This document shows, one piece after another, positions 4,941 to 19,366 of a stretch of DNA of 26,285 bases. This DNA comes from a virus, in IMG/VR virus record IMGVR_UViG_3300049811_000158, positions 1-26,285 of that record; one strand, 5' to 3'. The notes beneath the pieces were generated by a model. The model saw only the letters and a program-made list of their open reading frames with translations, was not told where the DNA came from and ran no database searches. The stretch's first letter is position 1; each line of letters begins with the position of its first letter. A program made the position numbers and the translations under genes.

Positions 4941-6476
4941 TCATCCGAATAATAGTTCCTCAGCAACTGCAGTTCTCTGCTCATGCGTTGCGTTAGTGAT
5001 ATCGGTCTTCAGTGGTGAAGACCTTGCTTCTAATAATATTCTACCAGTCTCTACGTTAAACTCATAATCTTTCTTCATCATCTTCCCCTTGTTCTTTTGG
5101 ATATCAACAGTAAGTATGCCATCCTTTGTTGAGTACAACATAATGACACACTCAGGGTCTTGGTACAGGTTAGAACTTCCCTTCAAGTCCTCCTTCGTTG
5201 GCGTTCTCTTTTTGAATGGGTCATCCTTGTCATCGTTGTTTATCTTTTTAATGTGGTGTACGACAATCATAATAACTCCAATCTCAATAGCCAGCTCCTT
5301 TAGGTCTTGTAGTATCTTACCTTGCGCTTCTATTCTATTAGGTGCATTACGTGCAAGAATATCAAGGTGGTCAATTATAATCACGTCTGTACCAAAGAGT
5401 CTCTTTGACCTACGTATCGTCTCAAATACATTTGACAATGACGGCTTCGAGAAGTACACTGGTAATGACGAGCAATCTATCTTCATCTCTTTCCAGTCTT
5501 GTTCTGGTACTGCAACGAAGTCACCCTCCGCCATGTTGTATCTTACCTGCAAGAACCTCTTGCCAACGGCTTCGTTGCCACGCTCAAATGGAAGTACTAA
5601 TACTGGAACCTTCTTGTCTGCGAACTCGGAGGCAAGGTTCAGTGCATAACTTGTCTTGCCTACGTTGCTATCACCAGACAACACCATTAACCAATCCTTC
5701 CCTATCTTAACACCAGGAATAAACTCCGAACTTATTGTGTTTGTTTCTCCATTACGAAGTGAATCCAAGATAGAAGATACATTAACAAAGTCATAGTTAT
5801 AGAACGGCTGTGCAGTCTTGATAAGTTCCCTGAACTCATCAATCGTGTGCTTCAAGAAGAACTCATTGGTATCTTTTACATCATCTGGGTACTTAACTTC
5901 TAAGCATTTATCCGCACCTATTTTTTCTGATAACTTCTTAGCCCCCTTCTTTCCAGCGTCATCATTATCATATGCTATGTAGACCTGCGGAACTGTGTCA
6001 AACAACTCTATCCATAGTCCAGTACTGCCTGCTCCACTACTTGAACTAACAACATTGCGTATACCACGTTGCCATGCGCTCATGCAATCAAACTCACCTT
6101 CAACGACGAGTATCTTTCCCTTCTGTTTTCCTAAAGAGAAAGCCTTCTCATTATATATCCACGTCTCAGCACCTCTCAGTGAACCATACTTAACACCGTC
6201 ATGTTCATCCGCATTAAGATGCCTGAACTTAACATTAATCAGTTCGTCATACTTAAAAATTGGTATTGCTATTGCGTTACGCTTTGCATTGTATCCTAAT
6301 TTAAACTCCTTAATCGTTTCATCTGTTAGCCCACGTTCATTGCGTAAGTAGTTGAGCGCGACTTCGTTATCTTGTAATTCTTTTTGGAATGTTTCAACGA
6401 GTGAAGGGTCGGGCTTCTGGTAAGAGCCACCGATTGCTGACCTGATAGATACAATCTGCTCATTGATGTTGCTCAT
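4941..6476 (-). CDS. TOPRIM primase / DnaB-type helicase (T7 gp4-like, lacking zinc finger)
   Basis: 511 residues. The N-terminal half has TOPRIM motifs: VVEGEFD at 124-130 and AYDNDDAG at 168-175, which bind the metals for RNA primer synthesis. The C-terminal half is a RecA-fold helicase with Walker A GDSNVGKTS (268-276), Walker B VIIIDH (365-370), and a following VHHIKK segment typical of DnaB/gp4 helicases. Together these fit a replicative primase-helicase working as a ring on the lagging strand. Unlike T7 gp4, no zinc finger precedes the TOPRIM domain; a separate zinc-finger protein lies three genes downstream (3701-4024). The start overlaps the upstream gene by 17 nt. Confidence 0.93.
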   Translation of the reverse strand: MSNINEQIVSIRSAIGGSYQKPDPSLVETFQKELQDNEVALNYLRNERGLTDETIKEFKLGYNAKRNAIAIPIFKYDELINVKFRHLNADEHDGVKYGSLRGAETWIYNEKAFSLGKQKGKILVVEGEFDCMSAWQRGIRNVVSSSSGAGSTGLWIELFDTVPQVYIAYDNDDAGKKGAKKLSEKIGADKCLEVKYPDDVKDTNEFFLKHTIDEFRELIKTAQPFYNYDFVNVSSILDSLRNGETNTISSEFIPGVKIGKDWLMVLSGDSNVGKTSYALNLASEFADKKVPVLVLPFERGNEAVGKRFLQVRYNMAEGDFVAVPEQDWKEMKIDCSSLPVYFSKPSLSNVFETIRRSKRLFGTDVIIIDHLDILARNAPNRIEAQGKILQDLKELAIEIGVIMIVVHHIKKINNDDKDDPFKKRTPTKEDLKGSSNLYQDPECVIMLYSTKDGILTVDIQKNKGKMMKKDYEFNVETGRILLEARSSPLKTDITNATHEQRTAVAEELLFG

Positions 6477-7186: not shown

Positions 7187-7954
7187 TCATTCAAAACTTT
7201 CCACATATTTATATATCGCTTCCTTATAACTATTAAAAGTACGACTACCTGCTTCTAACCCAGGGCTTGTGTTTACTTCAAGCACATGGGGTCTGTTCTT
7301 GTTGTTAGGATTGATAATAATATCTACTGCACCAAAGTCAAGACCAAGCGCATTGACTGCTTTGATTGCTTCCTCCTGTACTGAAGGGCGTGTTTCTACG
7401 TTTCTAGCGAAAGTCCATCCCCTACTATGGCTTTTGATTTTACTCTCTGCTATGGTCAAATTTGAGCTTTCTAGGGGTATCTTCTTTGTGTAATCTATGG
7501 CAACACCACGAAAAACATGGACTCGATACTCGATGTCTGATACAATCCCCTTGCTATACAATGGTGCGTTAGGTAGTTCATCATCACCAGACACAATAAC
7601 AATTCCCCTTCCTGAATTAGCACGAGTAAGTGTGCGTGCATACACTGTGTGCCCTTCATCTACCCACCTTTGTGCTTCTTCTTTATCAAGAGTGAACTCA
7701 ACAGTACGCACACCAGCTTCTCTCATTGTCGTAAGTGCTTCAACCTTATTGCAAGCACGTGCTACTGCTTCATATTTATTGAGGTCAGATTCACCGAATG
7801 ATGGTGCATTAGTGTTGCCCCAGTTTATAATCAAATCGTTGATACGTCTGCGATACCTACCAATATCACGAACACGCACTGCTGGTAACCAATCCCTCAT
7901 AACCTTGCCACCCTTACTACCGAACTTGTAAGGGTAAATTACTAATCGTTTCAT
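7187..7954 (-). CDS. ATP-grasp carboxylate-amine ligase (phiEco32-like)
   Basis: 255 residues. The C-terminal half has ATP-grasp features: a strand with acidic residues (GLDFGAVDIIINPNN) followed by HVLEVNTSPGLEAGS, the E-x-N-x-SPGL metal/ATP site of RimK and D-Ala ligase-like enzymes. The mid region (YARTLTRANSGRGIVIV) fits the glycine-rich nucleotide loop. These enzymes activate a carboxylate as acylphosphate and join it to an amine. Nearby genes for two glutamine-synthetase-fold ligases and a class II amidotransferase mark it as part of the cassette described in phiEco32-like phages. AAAAGGTG lies just before ATG 7954. Substrate unknown. Confidence 0.85.
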   Translation of the reverse strand: MKRLVIYPYKFGSKGGKVMRDWLPAVRVRDIGRYRRRINDLIINWGNTNAPSFGESDLNKYEAVARACNKVEALTTMREAGVRTVEFTLDKEEAQRWVDEGHTVYARTLTRANSGRGIVIVSGDDELPNAPLYSKGIVSDIEYRVHVFRGVAIDYTKKIPLESSNLTIAESKIKSHSRGWTFARNVETRPSVQEEAIKAVNALGLDFGAVDIIINPNNKNRPHVLEVNTSPGLEAGSRTFNSYKEAIYKYVESFE

Positions 7955-7974
7955 AAGTATACACCTTTTAATTG

Positions 7975-8403
7975 TTAAGTCAAGCGTTCTATGTAGTTGT
8001 ACACTACATCTTGCAGTGTGTCAACATTGTCGAACTCTATCTTCCTGTCGTATATCAAGTAACTGATTAGTACATTATAATTACTTCTAAACATTTCAAT
8101 AGGATACATTCTCTTTGGTATATTTTCTACTAACCATTTATCAAACGGATAAAGTGTCGGCTTGTAGGTCATATAAGCAAGGAGTAGAGACGCTACTTGC
8201 AGTTCACTGTGCACCTTGCATAGTGTTTTGAATATCATATTTGTTTTAGCATATGATATTACAGGTTCAGCATGGAGTCGTTGCTTCAACATCTTACGGT
8301 ACAGTGTTGTCAATCTTGACGCTGGTGTTGAGCCGTATTCCTTAGGTAGAGTAGGACTCCTGCTTGTTGCTTGCTCTTGACAAGTCTTTGTTTTCTGTGT
8401 CAT
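7975..8403 (-). CDS. hypothetical protein between amidoligase genes
   Basis: 142 residues. The N-terminus is polar and probably disordered (MTQKTKTCQEQATSRSPTLP); the rest is helical and aromatic (LLLAYMTYKPTLYPFDKWL, YNVLISYLIYD). No motif is recognised. It starts downstream of a 214-nt gap and ends 20 nt before the ATP-grasp gene, so it is probably co-transcribed and may be a cassette partner. Confidence 0.6.
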   Translation of the reverse strand: MTQKTKTCQEQATSRSPTLPKEYGSTPASRLTTLYRKMLKQRLHAEPVISYAKTNMIFKTLCKVHSELQVASLLLAYMTYKPTLYPFDKWLVENIPKRMYPIEMFRSNYNVLISYLIYDRKIEFDNVDTLQDVVYNYIERLT

Positions 8404-8617
8404 AACAATATAACTACTTGACTTTTAATACTGACTATGATATACTTGTATTACATTTGAATAGTTCTCACCCAAGCGTACTCCGCACGAATGGTTCCCT
8501 CAATGGAATACCGTTTTAGTTATGTTCTTTTCTGGGGGGGGGACTTTTCTTCTTTCCTTTCTTAATTCTTCTAACGACTTCTTATGGTGTCTGTTCCTTT
8601 CGTTCTTTAATCATTAC
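8404..8617. other. intergenic gap within the leftward cassette, with G9 tract
   Basis: No confident gene in 214 nt. It contains a rightward promoter (8418-8446), an imperfect hairpin (GGTTCC...GGAATACC, about 8492-8511) followed by GTTTTAG, and a run of nine G at 8534-8542. On the minus strand two charged Lys/Arg/Glu-rich frames cross the C9 tract but neither has a convincing start. Confidence 0.6.
8418..8446 (+). promoter_or_regulatory. orphan rightward sigma-70 promoter
   Basis: TTGACT (8418-8423), 17-bp spacer ending in TGA, TATACT (8441-8446). It matches the phage promoter pattern with one change in the -10 box, but points against all neighbouring genes. Transcription from about 8453 would cross the hairpin near 8492-8511; no rightward gene follows. 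Confidence 0.65.
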
Positions 8618-9439
8618 TTAAAAACCAGATACATCATGTTCAGAACGTATAAATTCATTCACCATAGCAATAAATGCCATACTGCTTTCAATACTGCTTT
8701 CATTTCCACTAAGCCTACTGAGCGGTTGTCTTACTTGAGAAAGACTACCTTGTTGCACGTAATCCTTCGCAATCTTTTTACTTATCCTTTTGAGCAAGCC
8801 CTTATCACTGAACGCCCTCACTGCACAATCCATAAGGAGTGTTCGGTTTATATTTTTCTTTCCTGATATTGCTTCTACCTCATGTCGTATTTGTTTTTCA
8901 ATATCTGGTGTGAGTGATACAAGCCTTTTGAATGATACCCCGCGAATGACATCATTCGTAATTCTCGCTTCGTAGCTGTTCCAGTCAGTCATTCTTTGAC
9001 GCAGCTCACTGAACAAACCAAGTAATTCTTTCGCGAGCAGTACTCGATTTCTCACAGTAAAGTACCAACTTTTAGCACTGTTACTGTGGGCAAGGTCAAT
9101 CTTGACTGAACCCTTAACGTCTACTGTTGTACCCTTAACAGTTATAGTCTTGTTGACCACTACTGGAACACGCATTTTTTTCCTGTCGATAGAAAAAGTA
9201 AATGACACACAACCAAAATTATTAGTCACTCCAGTGCACTCAGGTTGTTCAAAGCCATCCCAGTAATCAGCACTCGCTAGTGACACGATGATTGAGTTCA
9301 TCTTCTCAATTATGTCAGACTTTTCATGTAGTGCTCCATTGTGGAACTGTCGTGGAAGTGTCTGCTGTACGATGTAGTCTGAAATAATTGACAAATCACA
9401 CTTCAGTATCTTTCCAACGAACAATGATGTTTCACTCAT
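8618..9439 (-). CDS. hypothetical protein in amidoligase cassette
   Basis: 273 residues from ATG 9439, three bases after the amidotransferase stop, so almost surely co-translated with it. The N-terminal half looks beta-rich (GCVSFTFSIDRKKMRVPVVV, KTITVKGTTVDVKGSVKIDL); the C-terminal half is helical and charged. No catalytic motif or membrane segment is visible, and I do not recognise the family. Its position between the glutamine amidotransferase and the ATP-grasp genes makes it a candidate partner or substrate carrier of the pathway. Confidence 0.72.
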   Translation of the reverse strand: MSETSLFVGKILKCDLSIISDYIVQQTLPRQFHNGALHEKSDIIEKMNSIIVSLASADYWDGFEQPECTGVTNNFGCVSFTFSIDRKKMRVPVVVNKTITVKGTTVDVKGSVKIDLAHSNSAKSWYFTVRNRVLLAKELLGLFSELRQRMTDWNSYEARITNDVIRGVSFKRLVSLTPDIEKQIRHEVEAISGKKNINRTLLMDCAVRAFSDKGLLKRISKKIAKDYVQQGSLSQVRQPLSRLSGNESSIESSMAFIAMVNEFIRSEHDVSGF

Positions 9440-9442
9440 AGA

Positions 9443-10783
9443 TTAAAAGATAAGACCACTAATAGTTTTCTCTACTTCGCCAAGCTTCTCGACTAAAGCT
9501 TCACGTTCCTCTTCAAGTTTATCTAGCTGTTGTGTTTTCTTGAACCACTCCTCAACCATCTGTGGTGAGTTATCATCTTCCATAAGCCCAACCATCTGTT
9601 CTGTTTCCTCAATCTTTCCGTTGAGTTCATCAAGCTGTGCTTCGAGTGCGTCACGTTCGGCAATCATCAGCTCATCGTACGTCTCCTTGCTACAACTCAT
9701 CTTTGATTGGCACTTGACGTGTATGTATTCCTGTAGTGTATTGTCCCACACTTTTGTTTGGAATTGGTTGATGTACTCATCGCACATACAACACTTCTTA
9801 TCGTGGTATGGACTCGGTGTTGGAAGGGATAGTTGTTTCTCTTTGCCATATGACATGACCTTCTCTTCAGCACACTTTGGGCAAGTAATACTGGAAGCAT
9901 TACCATGTGGACACTTAGGTATTTCAATTACACGAGAAGTATCATACCCAACACTGTGAGTATTGTGCCCACTGTAAGCACTTCCATTGTAATGTTTTTG
10001 TTCGTGCGTATACGCTGAACTAGCAAGACTAATATGCGCTGACGACACTGACTTATCCTTACCACGACCAATGCGGTACAACTTGAAAGGTTCAACTATT
10101 TTACTGTCTTTTATCTTTGATTGAGACCACAGTGTGAACATTCCATGAGCATTGAACGAATGAAGCGGGTTTATGTTTCGAGCAAAGAGCACATTTTCTA
10201 CTTGCTTTGTGCGCTTGTTCACTTGCAGAGCGATGAACGCCATGCTTCCGTAAGCGTCAATCTCTTCCTTCTTTCCCTCAGCGTACAGTGCAATCTCTAT
10301 TGCGAGTGTCTCACTATCGTTGAACTCTCTCTTCGTCACCTCGATACGCTCTTTCTTTTTTCCGTTGCGAACCTTCCTGTACCCTGTTATGACTTCAACT
10401 TCTGTGTTGTATTCGAAACCAAGTGCTTCGTGCTTTGCTTTGAGTGACGTTGGGTTTACAATCACACCGTTGTGCACAACATAATAATCGTACTTCAACA
10501 TCTTGTTTGATACAAGTATTGGGTGCGCCGTCTCTTCATAGTTCCCAGTTGAAGTTGGAAACCTGTGATGAAAGAGTATCTCATCGGCTCCATGATAATC
10601 CTCTAGTTTCTTTTTGATTTCCTCTTCTGTTTCAGCCCTACAATACCCAATAACAAAGCCATTTTTTACTGCTACAAACCCAAAGCCTTGTTGACCACGA
10701 GACTTTTGTTCTTCATAACTTTTAAGTAGTGGTCTAATTGGTGAGTACCCATCATTTCTTTTTATGTATCCAATCCCACACAT
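9443..10783 (-). CDS. class II glutamine amidotransferase with Cys-rich and coiled-coil tail
   Basis: 446 residues starting MCGIGYI, where Cys2 is the N-terminal nucleophile of Ntn-type amidotransferases. Other family features follow: RGQQGFGFVAV, HHRFPTSTGNYEETAHP (the conserved Arg), VVHNGVIVNP (the Asn-Gly oxyanion pair) and NDSETLAIEIAL. The domain releases ammonia from glutamine, or acts in reverse as an amidase. After about residue 290 comes an unusual extension: Cys pairs (CPHGNASSITCPKC, then KCCMCDE and HVKCQSKMSC) likely to bind zinc, and a C-terminal coiled coil of about 75 residues (ERDALEAQLDELNGKIEETE). The companion ligases suggest it supplies ammonia or remodels amide bonds. 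Confidence 0.88.
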   Translation of the reverse strand: MCGIGYIKRNDGYSPIRPLLKSYEEQKSRGQQGFGFVAVKNGFVIGYCRAETEEEIKKKLEDYHGADEILFHHRFPTSTGNYEETAHPILVSNKMLKYDYYVVHNGVIVNPTSLKAKHEALGFEYNTEVEVITGYRKVRNGKKKERIEVTKREFNDSETLAIEIALYAEGKKEEIDAYGSMAFIALQVNKRTKQVENVLFARNINPLHSFNAHGMFTLWSQSKIKDSKIVEPFKLYRIGRGKDKSVSSAHISLASSAYTHEQKHYNGSAYSGHNTHSVGYDTSRVIEIPKCPHGNASSITCPKCAEEKVMSYGKEKQLSLPTPSPYHDKKCCMCDEYINQFQTKVWDNTLQEYIHVKCQSKMSCSKETYDELMIAERDALEAQLDELNGKIEETEQMVGLMEDDNSPQMVEEWFKKTQQLDKLEEEREALVEKLGEVEKTISGLIF

Positions 10784-10804
10784 AATATATTTATTATTTA
10801 ATAA

Positions 10805-11737
10805 TTATTTCTTTCGGTGCTTATCAATCAACGTGCAACCAAAGTCAAGTAGATACTTTGGCATACCCGTTTTGACAGCGAACGCACGCAACCTTGTCTT
10901 GGGTCCTTTGATGTTGTATAATTCAAGAGAGTCTACCTCTCTCAATTTGCTTGATGAGTCAATGATGTGTTGATGTAATGCTATCCAGTGAAGGATTAAA
11001 TCTGAGTCAAGGGTACCTTGCAGGTACCGCACTTCAATAGTACCTATTGAACCATATAGGTTGTGGAAGTTTATCCCATGATATCTTGCTTCGTTGTAGT
11101 GACTAGAGATTTCTCTCGGAATGTTTTCATATTCAGTTTTATACATCATCTCAAGAAAGTCTTTCTTAGTAGGTCTAGCTGCCACGATATCATCTAACTT
11201 AAAACCTTTTTCATAACCAGTCCCTGAATGACGCAATAACATTTTTGCTTTTCTGTTTTCAAGAGGTGCACAGTACTGATTGTTCCGTCTGTCTTCTGGT
11301 AGCATTGCTAGGATTGAGTAGTCCATCACAAAGTACGCAAGGAATACACGCTTCACTAACTTTGGTGACTCAATAATATCCTTTGCGTTGTGGTGTACAT
11401 GAACACCACAACTTTTATTCACAGTCCACCCAGCACTCTTTGCGTGTGTACAGAAGTTTATTATGTCCACTTCTCCTTTCGATTGTCTCATGGGTGGTGT
11501 TTGTATCTCAACCCCACCACCAACAGGTGATAGTATAGACCCGTCATGAGCAATACCCCAAGCAGTTGGAGGTACAGTCCTTTGATGTATTTCTCTAGCT
11601 CTATCCGACGAAGTTGCGTCTGGTACCATTTCAAACTCAACACCGAACAATCGAGGTGATTTAATTATCTTGCCTGAGACAGTCTCACTTCCGTATATAT
11701 TTTTTCCCTCAGTGTAGTCTATCTTTCTTAATTGCAT
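10805..11737 (-). CDS. glutamine-synthetase-fold amidoligase (COOH-NH2 ligase)
   Basis: 310 residues. Motifs match the putative amidoligase family with a glutamine-synthetase-like fold: FGVEFEM near residue 32, HDGSILS then GGVEIQTPPM, and CGVHVHHNA, followed by RNNQYCAPL. The acidic and His residues in these strands are the expected metal/ATP ligands. The family is predicted to form amide bonds between a carboxylate and an amine using ATP. It ends 22 nt before the amidotransferase gene and starts 12 nt after the second ligase, so the three genes form one block. Substrate not known. Confidence 0.85.
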   Translation of the reverse strand: MQLRKIDYTEGKNIYGSETVSGKIIKSPRLFGVEFEMVPDATSSDRAREIHQRTVPPTAWGIAHDGSILSPVGGGVEIQTPPMRQSKGEVDIINFCTHAKSAGWTVNKSCGVHVHHNAKDIIESPKLVKRVFLAYFVMDYSILAMLPEDRRNNQYCAPLENRKAKMLLRHSGTGYEKGFKLDDIVAARPTKKDFLEMMYKTEYENIPREISSHYNEARYHGINFHNLYGSIGTIEVRYLQGTLDSDLILHWIALHQHIIDSSSKLREVDSLELYNIKGPKTRLRAFAVKTGMPKYLLDFGCTLIDKHRKK

Positions 11738-11748
11738 TGTATTGCATA

Positions 11749-12897
11749 TTATTTAATAAGTTTCTTTTTCTTCATCTCTGTTGTTACTTTTCCTGAAAGG
11801 AACCGTTCAATCCCTACCCTACCGTTGGCATATTTCTGCAACCACTCCTTCTCAATGTCATGCAAGTCCCAATGTTTGATTGACTTTGATAAGAAATATT
11901 CAAACTGTGGAAGCAGGTGTTCAGTTAGCGGAGTGTAGTCACTCTCGAAATTATCAACAACATACTTCTTTATCTTGTCAAAGTTTTTCTTTGCAAGTTC
12001 AGCGTCATTGTTATTTATTGCGTTGCGAATGTCCTCTTCGTTGACAAGGTTTAGGATTTCTTGTGCATAATTCTTTTCATCTGCATAATTCTTTTCATCT
12101 GATGACACTGCAACGATAGTCACTGCTTGACGTGCTAGACCCATGACCATTGACATGAGTGTGTAACTACGCAACCAAAAGTTAGATGGTGTTCTGTACT
12201 CTAACCCATGTGAAGGTTTGCGATATTCTCCAGCCCTACCGTAGTGCTTTCTCCGTTCAGCGTTGCCTTCGTCTCTGTCAATCATCACGCAAGTGTTTCC
12301 ACAGATAACATCAAGGAGTTTCACTGTTAGTTCCCTCTTGTTTCCACGCAGTGCTCTTTCATATCCATAATAAGGTGCGTGAACATTGTTTACGCCACTG
12401 TACCCAAGATGAATATGTCCACCAGCACTACGATAATAGAACTTACTTGCGTCTGTTATCTTTGGTCTACCTGCTTCATCTGGGTACACATTGAATGAAG
12501 GTGAACACCCAAACTGTTTCGACTCTGGCGAAAGAGAGCTCATTTCTTTTTTTGTGATTGGGACAGTCACCCTCATGTCAATCTTTAATCCATCTTTCTT
12601 AATCAGCGCAAGTGCTGAGCTCAAACTATCCTTAATATAACTTGCATGGATTTCTCTACAGAATGAAGCTGCAGGGTTTAGCTCAACTTGGATACCATCC
12701 CTGATAACTGACTTGTAAAATGTCAATTCGTTATATTTTATGATAGCACTTCGCTGGTCATCTGTTGGACTGTCATATCCAACAGGTACAGCAGGGATAA
12801 CTTTCTCTGAACCTACAACCCTACCACGCTTGCTGATAAAAAACTCTGGGTCACAACCAATGTCTATTTGACCTTTCCCTATTAGTATTTTAGTCAT
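11749..12897 (-). CDS. phiEco32-like COOH-NH2 ligase, type 2
   Basis: 382 residues. Recognisable stretches are IGCDPEFFISKRG (near 13), IRDGIQVELNPAAS, SAGGHIHLGYSG, and MIDRDEGNAERRKHYGRAGE followed by HGLEYRTPSNFWL. These correspond to the acidic/His ligand strands and the Arg-rich loop of the glutamine-synthetase-fold ligases described in phiEco32-like phages. It should ligate a carboxyl group to an amine with ATP. The protein contains a tandem hexapeptide (DEKNYA twice) from an exact 18-bp DNA duplication in a linker after the catalytic core. It is the first large gene of the cassette in transcription order. Confidence 0.87.
   Translation of the reverse strand: MTKILIGKGQIDIGCDPEFFISKRGRVVGSEKVIPAVPVGYDSPTDDQRSAIIKYNELTFYKSVIRDGIQVELNPAASFCREIHASYIKDSLSSALALIKKDGLKIDMRVTVPITKKEMSSLSPESKQFGCSPSFNVYPDEAGRPKITDASKFYYRSAGGHIHLGYSGVNNVHAPYYGYERALRGNKRELTVKLLDVICGNTCVMIDRDEGNAERRKHYGRAGEYRKPSHGLEYRTPSNFWLRSYTLMSMVMGLARQAVTIVAVSSDEKNYADEKNYAQEILNLVNEEDIRNAINNNDAELAKKNFDKIKKYVVDNFESDYTPLTEHLLPQFEYFLSKSIKHWDLHDIEKEWLQKYANGRVGIERFLSGKVTTEMKKKKLIK
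12065..12100. repeat. 18-bp exact tandem duplication inside the ligase gene
   Basis: The unit GCATAATTCTTTTCATCT occurs twice in a row (12065-12082, 12083-12100). It adds one in-frame DEKNYA hexapeptide, so the reading frame is kept. Confidence 0.95.
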
Positions 12898-12907
12898 GTT
12901 GTTTTAA

Positions 12908-13192
12908 TTACACACCAAGTTCATCTGATAATTTTTCTTCACGTAAGATTTCCATAGTGTCAAGCTCCTGCTCAAGACTAGGTTCAATTTGCTCTGTTGG
13001 GTCATCATCATTCGTGTCACTCATTCGTGCGAGCACATCAACCTCTGACTCATCGAGTTCGTTTGTCTCATAAACAAACACATTGCCGTCACCAAGCACT
13101 TGTTCCAACTGTTCCTCTACAACGTGTTGCACTGTGTCTTTGTCCTCACCTCGGGCAACAACTTCAACGTAAACCGAAAATACTTTTGTCAT
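12908..13192 (-). CDS. acidic hypothetical protein at the head of the amidoligase cassette
   Basis: 94 residues. The N-terminal third (MTKVFSVYVEVVARGEDKD) looks like a small alpha/beta domain; the rest is very rich in Asp and Glu (MSDTNDDDPTEQIEPSLEQE, then LDTMEILREEKLSDEL). No family is recognised. It is 11 nt upstream of the type 2 ligase. A Glu/Asp-rich protein beside carboxylate-amine ligases could be a substrate, but this is only a guess. Confidence 0.65.
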   Translation of the reverse strand: MTKVFSVYVEVVARGEDKDTVQHVVEEQLEQVLGDGNVFVYETNELDESEVDVLARMSDTNDDDPTEQIEPSLEQELDTMEILREEKLSDELGV

Positions 13193-18129: not shown

Positions 18130-18202
18130 GCCTTGATAGCTCAGTTAGTAGAGCAGTTGCTTTGTAAGCATCAGGTCCTGGGTGCAAATCCTAGTCGAGG
18201 CT
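18130..18202 (+). tRNA. tRNA-Thr (anticodon TGT)
   Basis: A full cloverleaf is visible: acceptor GCCTTGA/TCGAGGC (one G-T pair), D arm GCTC...GAGC, anticodon loop TTTGTAA giving anticodon TGT, and T arm CTGGG/CCTAG with loop TGCAAAT. The anticodon stem has one mismatch. The discriminator is T, and CCA is not encoded. It would read ACA codons. Confidence 0.85.
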
Positions 18203-18209
18203 CCCGTGG

Positions 18210-18226
18210 GCTGGTTGAAATCCAGC
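18210..18226 (+). other. T-arm-like tRNA remnant
   Basis: GCTGG-TTGAAAT-CCAGC has a 5-bp stem and 7-nt loop like a tRNA T arm, but no other arms surround it. It lies between the two tRNA genes and may be what is left of a third. Confidence 0.4.
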
Positions 18227-18232
18227 AAACGT

Positions 18233-18302
18233 GGTGGTGTAGTTCAATGGAAAAACAATGGCTGTGGCGCCATCATCCCTGGTTCGATTCCAGGCATCAC
18301 CA
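18233..18302 (+). tRNA. tRNA-like gene, possible tRNA-His (GTG), atypical
   Basis: Acceptor GGTGGTG/CATCACC and T arm CCTGG-TTCGATT-CCAGG are sound. The D arm is weak, GTTC facing AAAC. The anticodon region is irregular: ATGG/CCAT with an 8-nt loop holding TGTGG (anticodon GTG), or a 5-bp stem with a 6-nt loop. The G(-1):C73 pair expected of bacterial tRNA-His is absent; T18232 and A18302 could pair instead. It ends three bases before the next gene's ATG and may be degenerate or specialised. Confidence 0.5.
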
Positions 18303-18304
18303 AT

Positions 18305-19366
18305 ATGATATTCAAACCTAAACGCAATCTATCTGGAGCGAATCTTGATATTCGCCCCCAGAGAGAAAAGAATCTCGACTACCAGTTTAACGAACTGGTT
18401 GCTTCTGCTTCTCCTGTAATGTGGAGAGAGAAGCCCGAGTCAGAGTGGAGGAAGTTCCTCATCTCTGACCAAGGAACATCTGGTTCTTGTGTTGCCCATA
18501 CTCTTGCTAAGCAACTACAGATTCTTTATTGGCTCAAGACAAGCTCCAAGGTTAAGTTCTCTGCAACACACATCTATCAACGTCGAGCCAATAAACCATA
18601 TCAGGGCATGGCTGTTACTGATGTATTTAAGATTGGACAAGGCGGGGTAACACTTGAAGTACTTGCTCCGCATGAAGGACTGTCTGATTCACAGATGGAT
18701 TCATTTAAGATTGAAGAGTTCAACAAGGATGTTGGGAAGGTATTCGCTATTGGCAATTGGTTATACACTCCAGTTGATATTGACACAATCGCATCAGTTA
18801 TTCAAACAACAGGCAAGGGAGTAATGGTGTGGTTCTATTGGCAGTATGATGAATGGACCTCAACACCAAAGGTGAAGTATCCGTCCTTAACTGCAGACAA
18901 AGCAGAGGGGAGGCACTCTGTAACCGCAGTAGACTTCACATTGCACAATGGAAAGAAAGCTCTTATTATTGAAGACAGTTGGGGACCGAAGACTGCAATT
19001 GATGGGCGTAGAATTATCGATGAAGACTTCGTTAAGGCACGTTGTTATATGGCTGCGTATCCTATGAATTTCAAATTCGATGAGGTTGTTTTAACGAAAC
19101 CAAAGTATAAGTTCACGAAGAATCTACAGTTTGTACCAGTTAAAACATTTGATAAGGATGTTGTGGCACTTCAAGATATCCTTAAGTATGAAGGAGTCTT
19201 CCCTGCAAACGTAGACTCAACTGGGTGGTACGGAGCAGTCACTGCCGAGTCTGTAAAGAAATGGCAGAAGAAACACTTCATTGACACAGAAGCAACACTT
19301 GATTTGCTTGGTGGAAAGTTTGCTGGTCCCAAGACAATTGCGAAGCTTAATGAACTCTACTCATGA
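18305..19366 (+). CDS. papain-like (C1) cysteine peptidase with peptidoglycan-binding domain
   Basis: 353 residues from ATG 18305, three bases after the tRNA-like gene; an upstream in-frame ATG would run through both tRNAs and is rejected. SDQGTSGSCVAHTLAKQ holds the oxyanion Gln56 and nucleophile Cys62; His204 lies in GRHSVTAVD; IIEDSWG puts Asp224 where papain has Asn. Residues about 280-330 (DKDVVALQDILKYEGVFP, then WYGAVTAESVKKWQKKHF) match the PG_binding_1 fold. It probably cuts the peptide part of the cell wall or a surface protein. It may be a second lysin or a virion component; there is no signal peptide. The stop overlaps the next start (ATGA). Confidence 0.82.
   Translation: MIFKPKRNLSGANLDIRPQREKNLDYQFNELVASASPVMWREKPESEWRKFLISDQGTSGSCVAHTLAKQLQILYWLKTSSKVKFSATHIYQRRANKPYQGMAVTDVFKIGQGGVTLEVLAPHEGLSDSQMDSFKIEEFNKDVGKVFAIGNWLYTPVDIDTIASVIQTTGKGVMVWFYWQYDEWTSTPKVKYPSLTADKAEGRHSVTAVDFTLHNGKKALIIEDSWGPKTAIDGRRIIDEDFVKARCYMAAYPMNFKFDEVVLTKPKYKFTKNLQFVPVKTFDKDVVALQDILKYEGVFPANVDSTGWYGAVTAESVKKWQKKHFIDTEATLDLLGGKFAGPKTIAKLNELYS

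Follow-up and report, generated by a model that had tools for sequence, protein, structure and literature searches.

We analysed a gene cassette for amide-bond chemistry in the IMG/VR virus record IMGVR_UViG_3300049811_000158. The record has 26,285 bases and is probably a fragment; we call this whole stretch of DNA the window. Early and replication genes run leftward at its left, and those at its right, for terminase, portal-like and lysis proteins, run rightward. Six leftward genes make up the block at 7187-12897. A first-pass annotation had matched four of their products to the enzymes of the cassette carried by phiEco32-like phages and had left two, of 273 and 142 residues, as uncharacterized partners. 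All six open reading frames were confirmed on the minus strand at the positions listed below, and their in-frame codon bias exceeds that of the other frames and of the antisense strand. Successive intergenic spacings along the block are 11, 21, 3, 214 and 20 nucleotides (nt), so that the 214-nt gap sets the gene of the 142-residue protein off from that of the 273-residue protein. The features are as follows (pI, isoelectric point).

12908..13192, minus strand: acidic orphan of 94 residues (pI 4.1), just upstream of the COOH-NH2 ligase; cassette membership unsupported
11749..12897, minus strand: COOH-NH2 ligase (PF14395/phrog_3815) with a glutamine-synthetase fold, from profile and AlphaFold2 model
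11752..12012, minus strand: C-terminal helical extension of the COOH-NH2 ligase (about residues 296-382), a mark of the clade described below
10805..11737, minus strand: Amidoligase_2 (PF12224) with a glutamine-synthetase fold, from profile and AlphaFold2 model
9443..10783, minus strand: class II (Ntn) glutamine amidotransferase with an extra C-terminal tail, from NCBIfam, residues and family profile
9446..10078, minus strand: C-terminal tail of the amidotransferase (about residues 236-446), two Cys clusters and then a probable coiled coil, from sequence
8618..9439, minus strand: orphan of 273 residues (pI 9.3), supported as coding by codon bias, probably a lineage-specific insert
7975..8403, minus strand: protein of 142 residues, probable C-terminal domain of a DnaD-like helicase loader, from its homologue in L110
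7187..7954, minus strand: RimK-like ATP-grasp ligase, from PHROG, profile and NCBIfam matches
4941..6476, minus strand: primase-helicase (phrog_239, 1e-60), the downstream context and usual neighbour of the cassette

Judged by its sequence, the block is an amidoligase cassette of the phiEco32 type, known in kind and widespread in phiEco32-like, LUZ24-like and Zobellviridae phages. Firstly, both ligases fall into families with a glutamine-synthetase (GS) fold, as the first-pass annotation had proposed. The COOH-NH2 ligase matches PF14395 above cutoff (E=6.6e-11) and phrog_3815 (E=6e-36), and the amidoligase matches PF12224 (E=2.8e-22, 80 bits against a cutoff of 22); the E-values for PF14395, PF12224 and, for the ATP-grasp ligase, phrog_2599 (8.5e-68) indicate that the family placement is not due to chance. 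AlphaFold2 models made with alignments of viral relatives as input reached predicted local distance difference test (pLDDT) values of 88 for the COOH-NH2 ligase and 87 for the amidoligase. The first resembles Dop (VIA Z 15.3), GshF (15.0), YbdK (14.8), PafA (14.7) and GS (13.8), and the second a YbdK-like enzyme (13.1) and GS (12.9). No relation of the two ligases to the solved structures searched was found at the sequence level. Secondly, the GS-like ExE, HxH and ExR motifs are essentially invariant among 110 homologues of each ligase, a set in which D16, E18, E72, H161, H163, R226, E233 and R235 of the COOH-NH2 ligase and E34, E36, H113, H115, E235 and R237 of the amidoligase are all invariant. 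In the COOH-NH2 ligase model, the C-terminal extension is formed by helices at residues 299-316, 329-336, 348-358 and 363-377.

The amidotransferase by itself matches GATase_6 only below the Pfam cutoff (E=0.0018), along with the GlmS-like (1.1e-7) and PurF (2e-6) models of NCBIfam. Its catalytic half is 35-43% identical to relatives that lie beside the same ligases in other phages, and the family profile matches GlmS/PurF structures at about 1e-16. From these structure-profile and NCBIfam matches, an EgtC/Dug3-type amidotransferase is less likely than one of the GlmS/PurF type. C2, R74, N105, G106 and D156 are invariant in all 11 clade members compared; for D156 this was read from the clade alignment, in which FNDSE is intact, the residue being misplaced by an insertion in the wide alignment. 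The ATP-grasp ligase is about 40% identical to that of PA11. It matches the NCBIfam models MptN (1.6e-9) and RimK (4e-9), and its profile matches alpha-L-glutamate ligases at about 1e-9; K70, E142, R144, H146, D211 and E226 are invariant among its 110 homologues. All four enzyme families are thus placed with their active sites intact. Neither ligase failed to fall into a GS-fold family, and Cys2 and the other catalytic residues showed no loss in relatives.

The amidotransferase tail had been singled out as new. It is indeed Cys-rich and coiled-coil-like, but a Cys-rich tail is not a novelty, since a C-terminal CxxC...CxxC ribbon of four Cys occurs in 8 of 11 aligned reference amidotransferases (those of PaP3, PA11, T2S2, Klyazma, T4S1, T5S1, T2S1 and Phriendly). 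Within the clade the tail is poorly conserved; its coiled-coil-like part is loosely common, and the Cys clusters are unique to the window. In the related phage L098 (14127-17956), two amidotransferase genes flank one amidoligase gene.

The four families occur together in PaP3, PA11, phiEco32, Salmonella phage 7-11, Zobellviridae and other phages, where a primase-helicase generally comes after them, and the window has the same primase-helicase neighbour as PaP3, PA11, phiEco32 and Zobellviridae. Its core genes lie in one orientation beside replication genes, the arrangement by which such a cassette is recognized. Phage records match the COOH-NH2 ligase in 304 cases and the ATP-grasp ligase in 310, with a nearly equal breakdown by host. 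Amidoligase and amidotransferase are both present in 43 of the 45 IMG/VR loci that were centred on the ATP-grasp gene and had enough upstream sequence. No other adjacent pair is as common as an amidoligase gene followed by an amidotransferase gene (88 cases in 153 loci, median gap 1 nt), and the window's order of COOH-NH2 ligase, amidoligase, amidotransferase and ATP-grasp ligase was found in 13 loci. Scans of IMG/VR with single proteins (amidoligase, 273-residue protein, amidotransferase) gave no relatives; kin were reached by alignment queries only. The best matches of the window's terminase are in phages other than the reference carriers of the cassette, indicating that the phage backbones differ. 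Where matches in bacterial genomes can be judged, they appear to come from contigs of phages or mobile elements that had been binned with the genomes, not from chromosomal operons: these contigs have clamp-loader, SSB, helicase or RNA-polymerase-like genes, or full phage-like cassettes, and several others are too short to judge. On one contig of a metagenome-assembled genome (L196), the COOH-NH2 ligase adjoins a Peptidase_C26 protein and an RNA-polymerase-like protein, which suggests a large phage in which the nearby sequence holds just a portion of the cassette.

Within this wide family, the window represents a distinct, divergent and apparently functional branch of which we found no earlier description. 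A tree of 64 COOH-NH2 ligases places 19 of them, the window's among these, in a single group with support 100/100, separate from every reference phage. The ligase is longer in the clade (319-444 residues, median 358, in 20 loci) than in 99 other loci (median 275). A partner of about 190 residues (phrog_4877), encoded in 52 of these 99 loci, is found in none of the 20 clade loci, the window included (p=3e-6, a value that describes a lineage trait and does not count independent losses).

Comparison with the closest known systems sharpens this picture. phiEco32 (gp80, gp83, gp84 and gp86; discussed by Iyer et al. 2009) has the same four families, tightly linked, in one orientation and upstream of a primase-helicase. 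The window differs in lacking the ~190-residue partner (gp85, phrog_4877), GGACT (gp77) and gp87/88-like genes, and in a ligase with a C-terminal extension that belongs to a separate clade. The LUZ24/PaP3-like phages and Zobellviridae (PaP3 orf43-48; PA11 gp001-gp008) likewise share the core enzymes and the primase-helicase after them, and their amidotransferase also has extra C-terminal sequence, including the Cys ribbon. In Zobellviridae, however, the amidotransferase gene comes ahead of the ligase gene and there is an additional Peptidase_C26 gene, whereas in the window the ligase comes first.

A partnership with these enzymes is not supported for either of the two proteins left without a function. 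L110 encodes a 264-residue protein with a winged-helix N-terminal half (HTH_36, 3e-9; phrog_186, 6e-15) of the kind found in DnaD-like helicase loaders and replication initiators, and most of the 142-residue protein aligns to the C-terminal half of this protein. Homologues occur in four related phages, and in L072 and L110 they also lie between the amidotransferase and the ATP-grasp ligase. By homology, the 142-residue protein probably acts in replication, as would fit the nearby primase-helicase, and probably stands outside the amide chemistry. The 273-residue protein had no relative in any search made (Pfam, PHROGs, NCBIfam, the IMG/VR scan, phage tblastn, the 20 clade records and profile comparison). 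The 94-residue protein encoded just upstream of the block had been suggested as an acidic acceptor. Acidic it is (pI 4.1), but a role as acceptor is not borne out: no homologue was found in the related loci examined and profile comparisons stayed at noise, its C-terminus is ELGV, whereas Pup-like tags end in Glu/Gln, and three clade members (L021/L110, L109 and L115) have a gamma-glutamyl cyclotransferase gene in its place upstream of the ligase. Profile comparison likewise gave no signal for a degenerate cyclotransferase or a Pup-like tag.

Cyclotransferases are one of two kinds of gamma-glutamyl-cleaving enzyme that recur beside the core. A PF06094 (GGACT) or PF07722 (Peptidase_C26) gene is also present in 74 of 129 loci with the three-gene core, with conserved catalytic motifs (GxCRG, HHQ and HPE in C26; YGxL plus Glu in GGACT), and the core gene nearest to it is always on the same strand. 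Nine loci of the window's group have one: GGACT in L021, L022, L060, L103, L106, L109 and L115, and C26 in L072 and L098. The L072 hydrolase is closest to the models for gamma-glutamyl-GABA hydrolase and gamma-glutamyl-CDP-amidate hydrolase. Of 57 loci with the ~190-residue partner, 46 have one of these two genes but not both (p=3e-6, confounded by lineage). They are not strict alternatives: over all 129 loci the odds ratio is 0.95, and the pattern holds within partner-positive loci only. PuuD-like Peptidase_C26 genes lie beside cassette genes in many phages (for example L072:3561-4280, L196:6084-6833 and L002:432-1052), where their products carry the generic annotation 'glutamine amidotransferase'.

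From these features we infer, tentatively, a pathway to gamma-glutamyl amides in which the amidotransferase would feed ammonia to the neighbouring amidoligase. With ATP, the COOH-NH2 ligase would convert a carboxylate (most likely glutamate's gamma-carboxylate) to its acyl-phosphate and couple it to an amine, in the manner of PuuA, GmaS, glutamate-cysteine ligase or PafA. The Cys2 amidotransferase would free ammonia from glutamine, with which the paired amidoligase, itself lacking a glutaminase, would amidate an ATP-activated carboxylate. The RimK-like ligase would then add a further amino acid, probably glutamate. In relatives, the cyclotransferase or PuuD-like hydrolase may cut the gamma-glutamyl bond and so release or trim the product. 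Three lines of evidence lead to this model. Firstly, the folds of the ligases belong to activators of glutamate carboxylates (GS, glutamate-cysteine ligase, GmaS and PafA). Secondly, amidoligase and amidotransferase form the most frequent adjacency, and in two evolved isolates of Pseudomonas phage FJK both genes acquired missense mutations, at different positions (PMC11450229); ammonia transfer between the two proteins is the simplest reading. Thirdly, the 74 loci described above encode a cyclotransferase or hydrolase whose catalytic residues are conserved. A GS-fold ligase and such a hydrolase are a known pair for gamma-glutamylation and deglutamylation in PuuA and PuuD (PMC9397018). Many related cassettes resemble the putrescine-utilization (Puu) system of E. 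coli in pairing a ligase of this fold, putatively an ATP-dependent gamma-glutamyl ligase, with a Peptidase_C26 gamma-glutamyl hydrolase, but they lack the PuuB/PuuC oxidation genes and add a class II amidotransferase and an ATP-grasp enzyme; the window fragment has no PuuD-like gene, although its relatives L072 and L098 have one.

Several observations weigh against the gamma-glutamyl model. GS-fold ligases act on many carboxylates, and the matches to Dop, glutamate-cysteine ligase and GS lie close in Z. Neither GGACT nor Peptidase_C26 was found in the window's 26-kb fragment, and 55 of the 129 other loci, many of them fragments, have neither. The loci cannot be counted as independent instances of co-occurrence, C26 and GGACT partly tracking lineages, and the open literature searched yielded no biochemical data or experimental assignment for any cassette member. 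Hence our confidence in the chemistry falls somewhat short of even, because the window lacks the accessory gene, the counts partly reflect shared ancestry and no biochemical test was found. A stronger version, which we consider doubtful, is that several unrelated phage lineages carry a complete gamma-glutamyl shuttle of which the window is a distinct branch: the ligases would put gamma-glutamate on an amine as a carrier or protecting group, the ammonia-fed amidoligase and the ATP-grasp ligase would elaborate it, and the hydrolase or cyclotransferase would remove the gamma-glutamyl group to leave a phage-specific metabolite.

The same enzymes could instead tag proteins or peptides, putting a small peptide or a glutamate chain on a protein of the host or the phage, like the PafA/Pup and RimK/S6 systems. 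Dop (Z 15.3) and PafA (14.7), which have the GS fold in common with the COOH-NH2 ligase, rank at the top of its structural matches with others, and the ATP-grasp enzyme is closest to the RimK/MptN alpha-L-glutamate ligases. Dop/PafA, glutamate-cysteine ligase and GS differ little in Z, however; no Pup-like partner and no sequence-level match to solved structures were found, the sole small acidic candidate is the 94-residue orphan ending in LGV, and the recurrent gamma-glutamyl hydrolases and cyclotransferases are best known for small-molecule substrates. We regard tagging as unlikely. ATP-grasp and amide ligases act on cell-wall peptides elsewhere, and the cassette might modify the cell surface or wall, for example peptidoglycan peptides, and so block superinfection. 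Surface modification with superinfection exclusion is what Iyer et al. (2009) proposed for phiEco32, as cited in PMC10580990 and PMC11318856. We hold this too to be improbable, as no experimental demonstration was found in the literature searched, no cell-wall, export or glycan gene was recognized beside the window's cassette, and the neighbours that were recognized are replication genes. Least probable is a pathway for small-molecule counter-defence or for nucleotide/DNA modification in which amide chemistry would be merely the means: the cassette does lie in the early/replication region beside a primase-helicase in many phages, and the window's terminase is unlike that of reference cassette phages, as a mobile module for takeover or defence evasion would lead one to expect, but neither the window's cassette nor its neighbourhood showed a nucleobase-modifying enzyme, and no sequence pointer to a nucleotide substrate was found.

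Elsewhere in the window, a Shine-Dalgarno-like motif precedes just 3 of the 22 genes checked; the leaders of the cassette genes are A+T-rich and have none. This scarcity may hint at a host with little use of such motifs. The 94-residue protein encoded at 13781-14065 matches phrog_16022 (3.5e-9) and has a weak similarity to S-adenosylmethionine lyase (PF23780, E=3.4e-4, below cutoff). Two adjacent tRNA genes lie at 18130-18303; ARAGORN gives the second a four-base anticodon, GTGG, but the Rfam tRNA model matches it well (51 bits), and an ordinary tRNA may have been misread here. A lysis-region protein at 18182-19366 has a papain-family (C1) peptidase match and a peptidoglycan-binding domain; its listed GTG start overlaps the tRNA genes, and the true start is probably downstream.

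The cassette is carried by hundreds of phages, many of them phages of Pseudomonas and E. coli, and the question of what it makes dates from 2009 at the latest. The clade to which the window belongs shows that the ~190-residue partner is dispensable for some versions of the core, and the gamma-glutamyl-cleaving neighbours narrow the chemistry to something that an ordinary metabolite assay could address.

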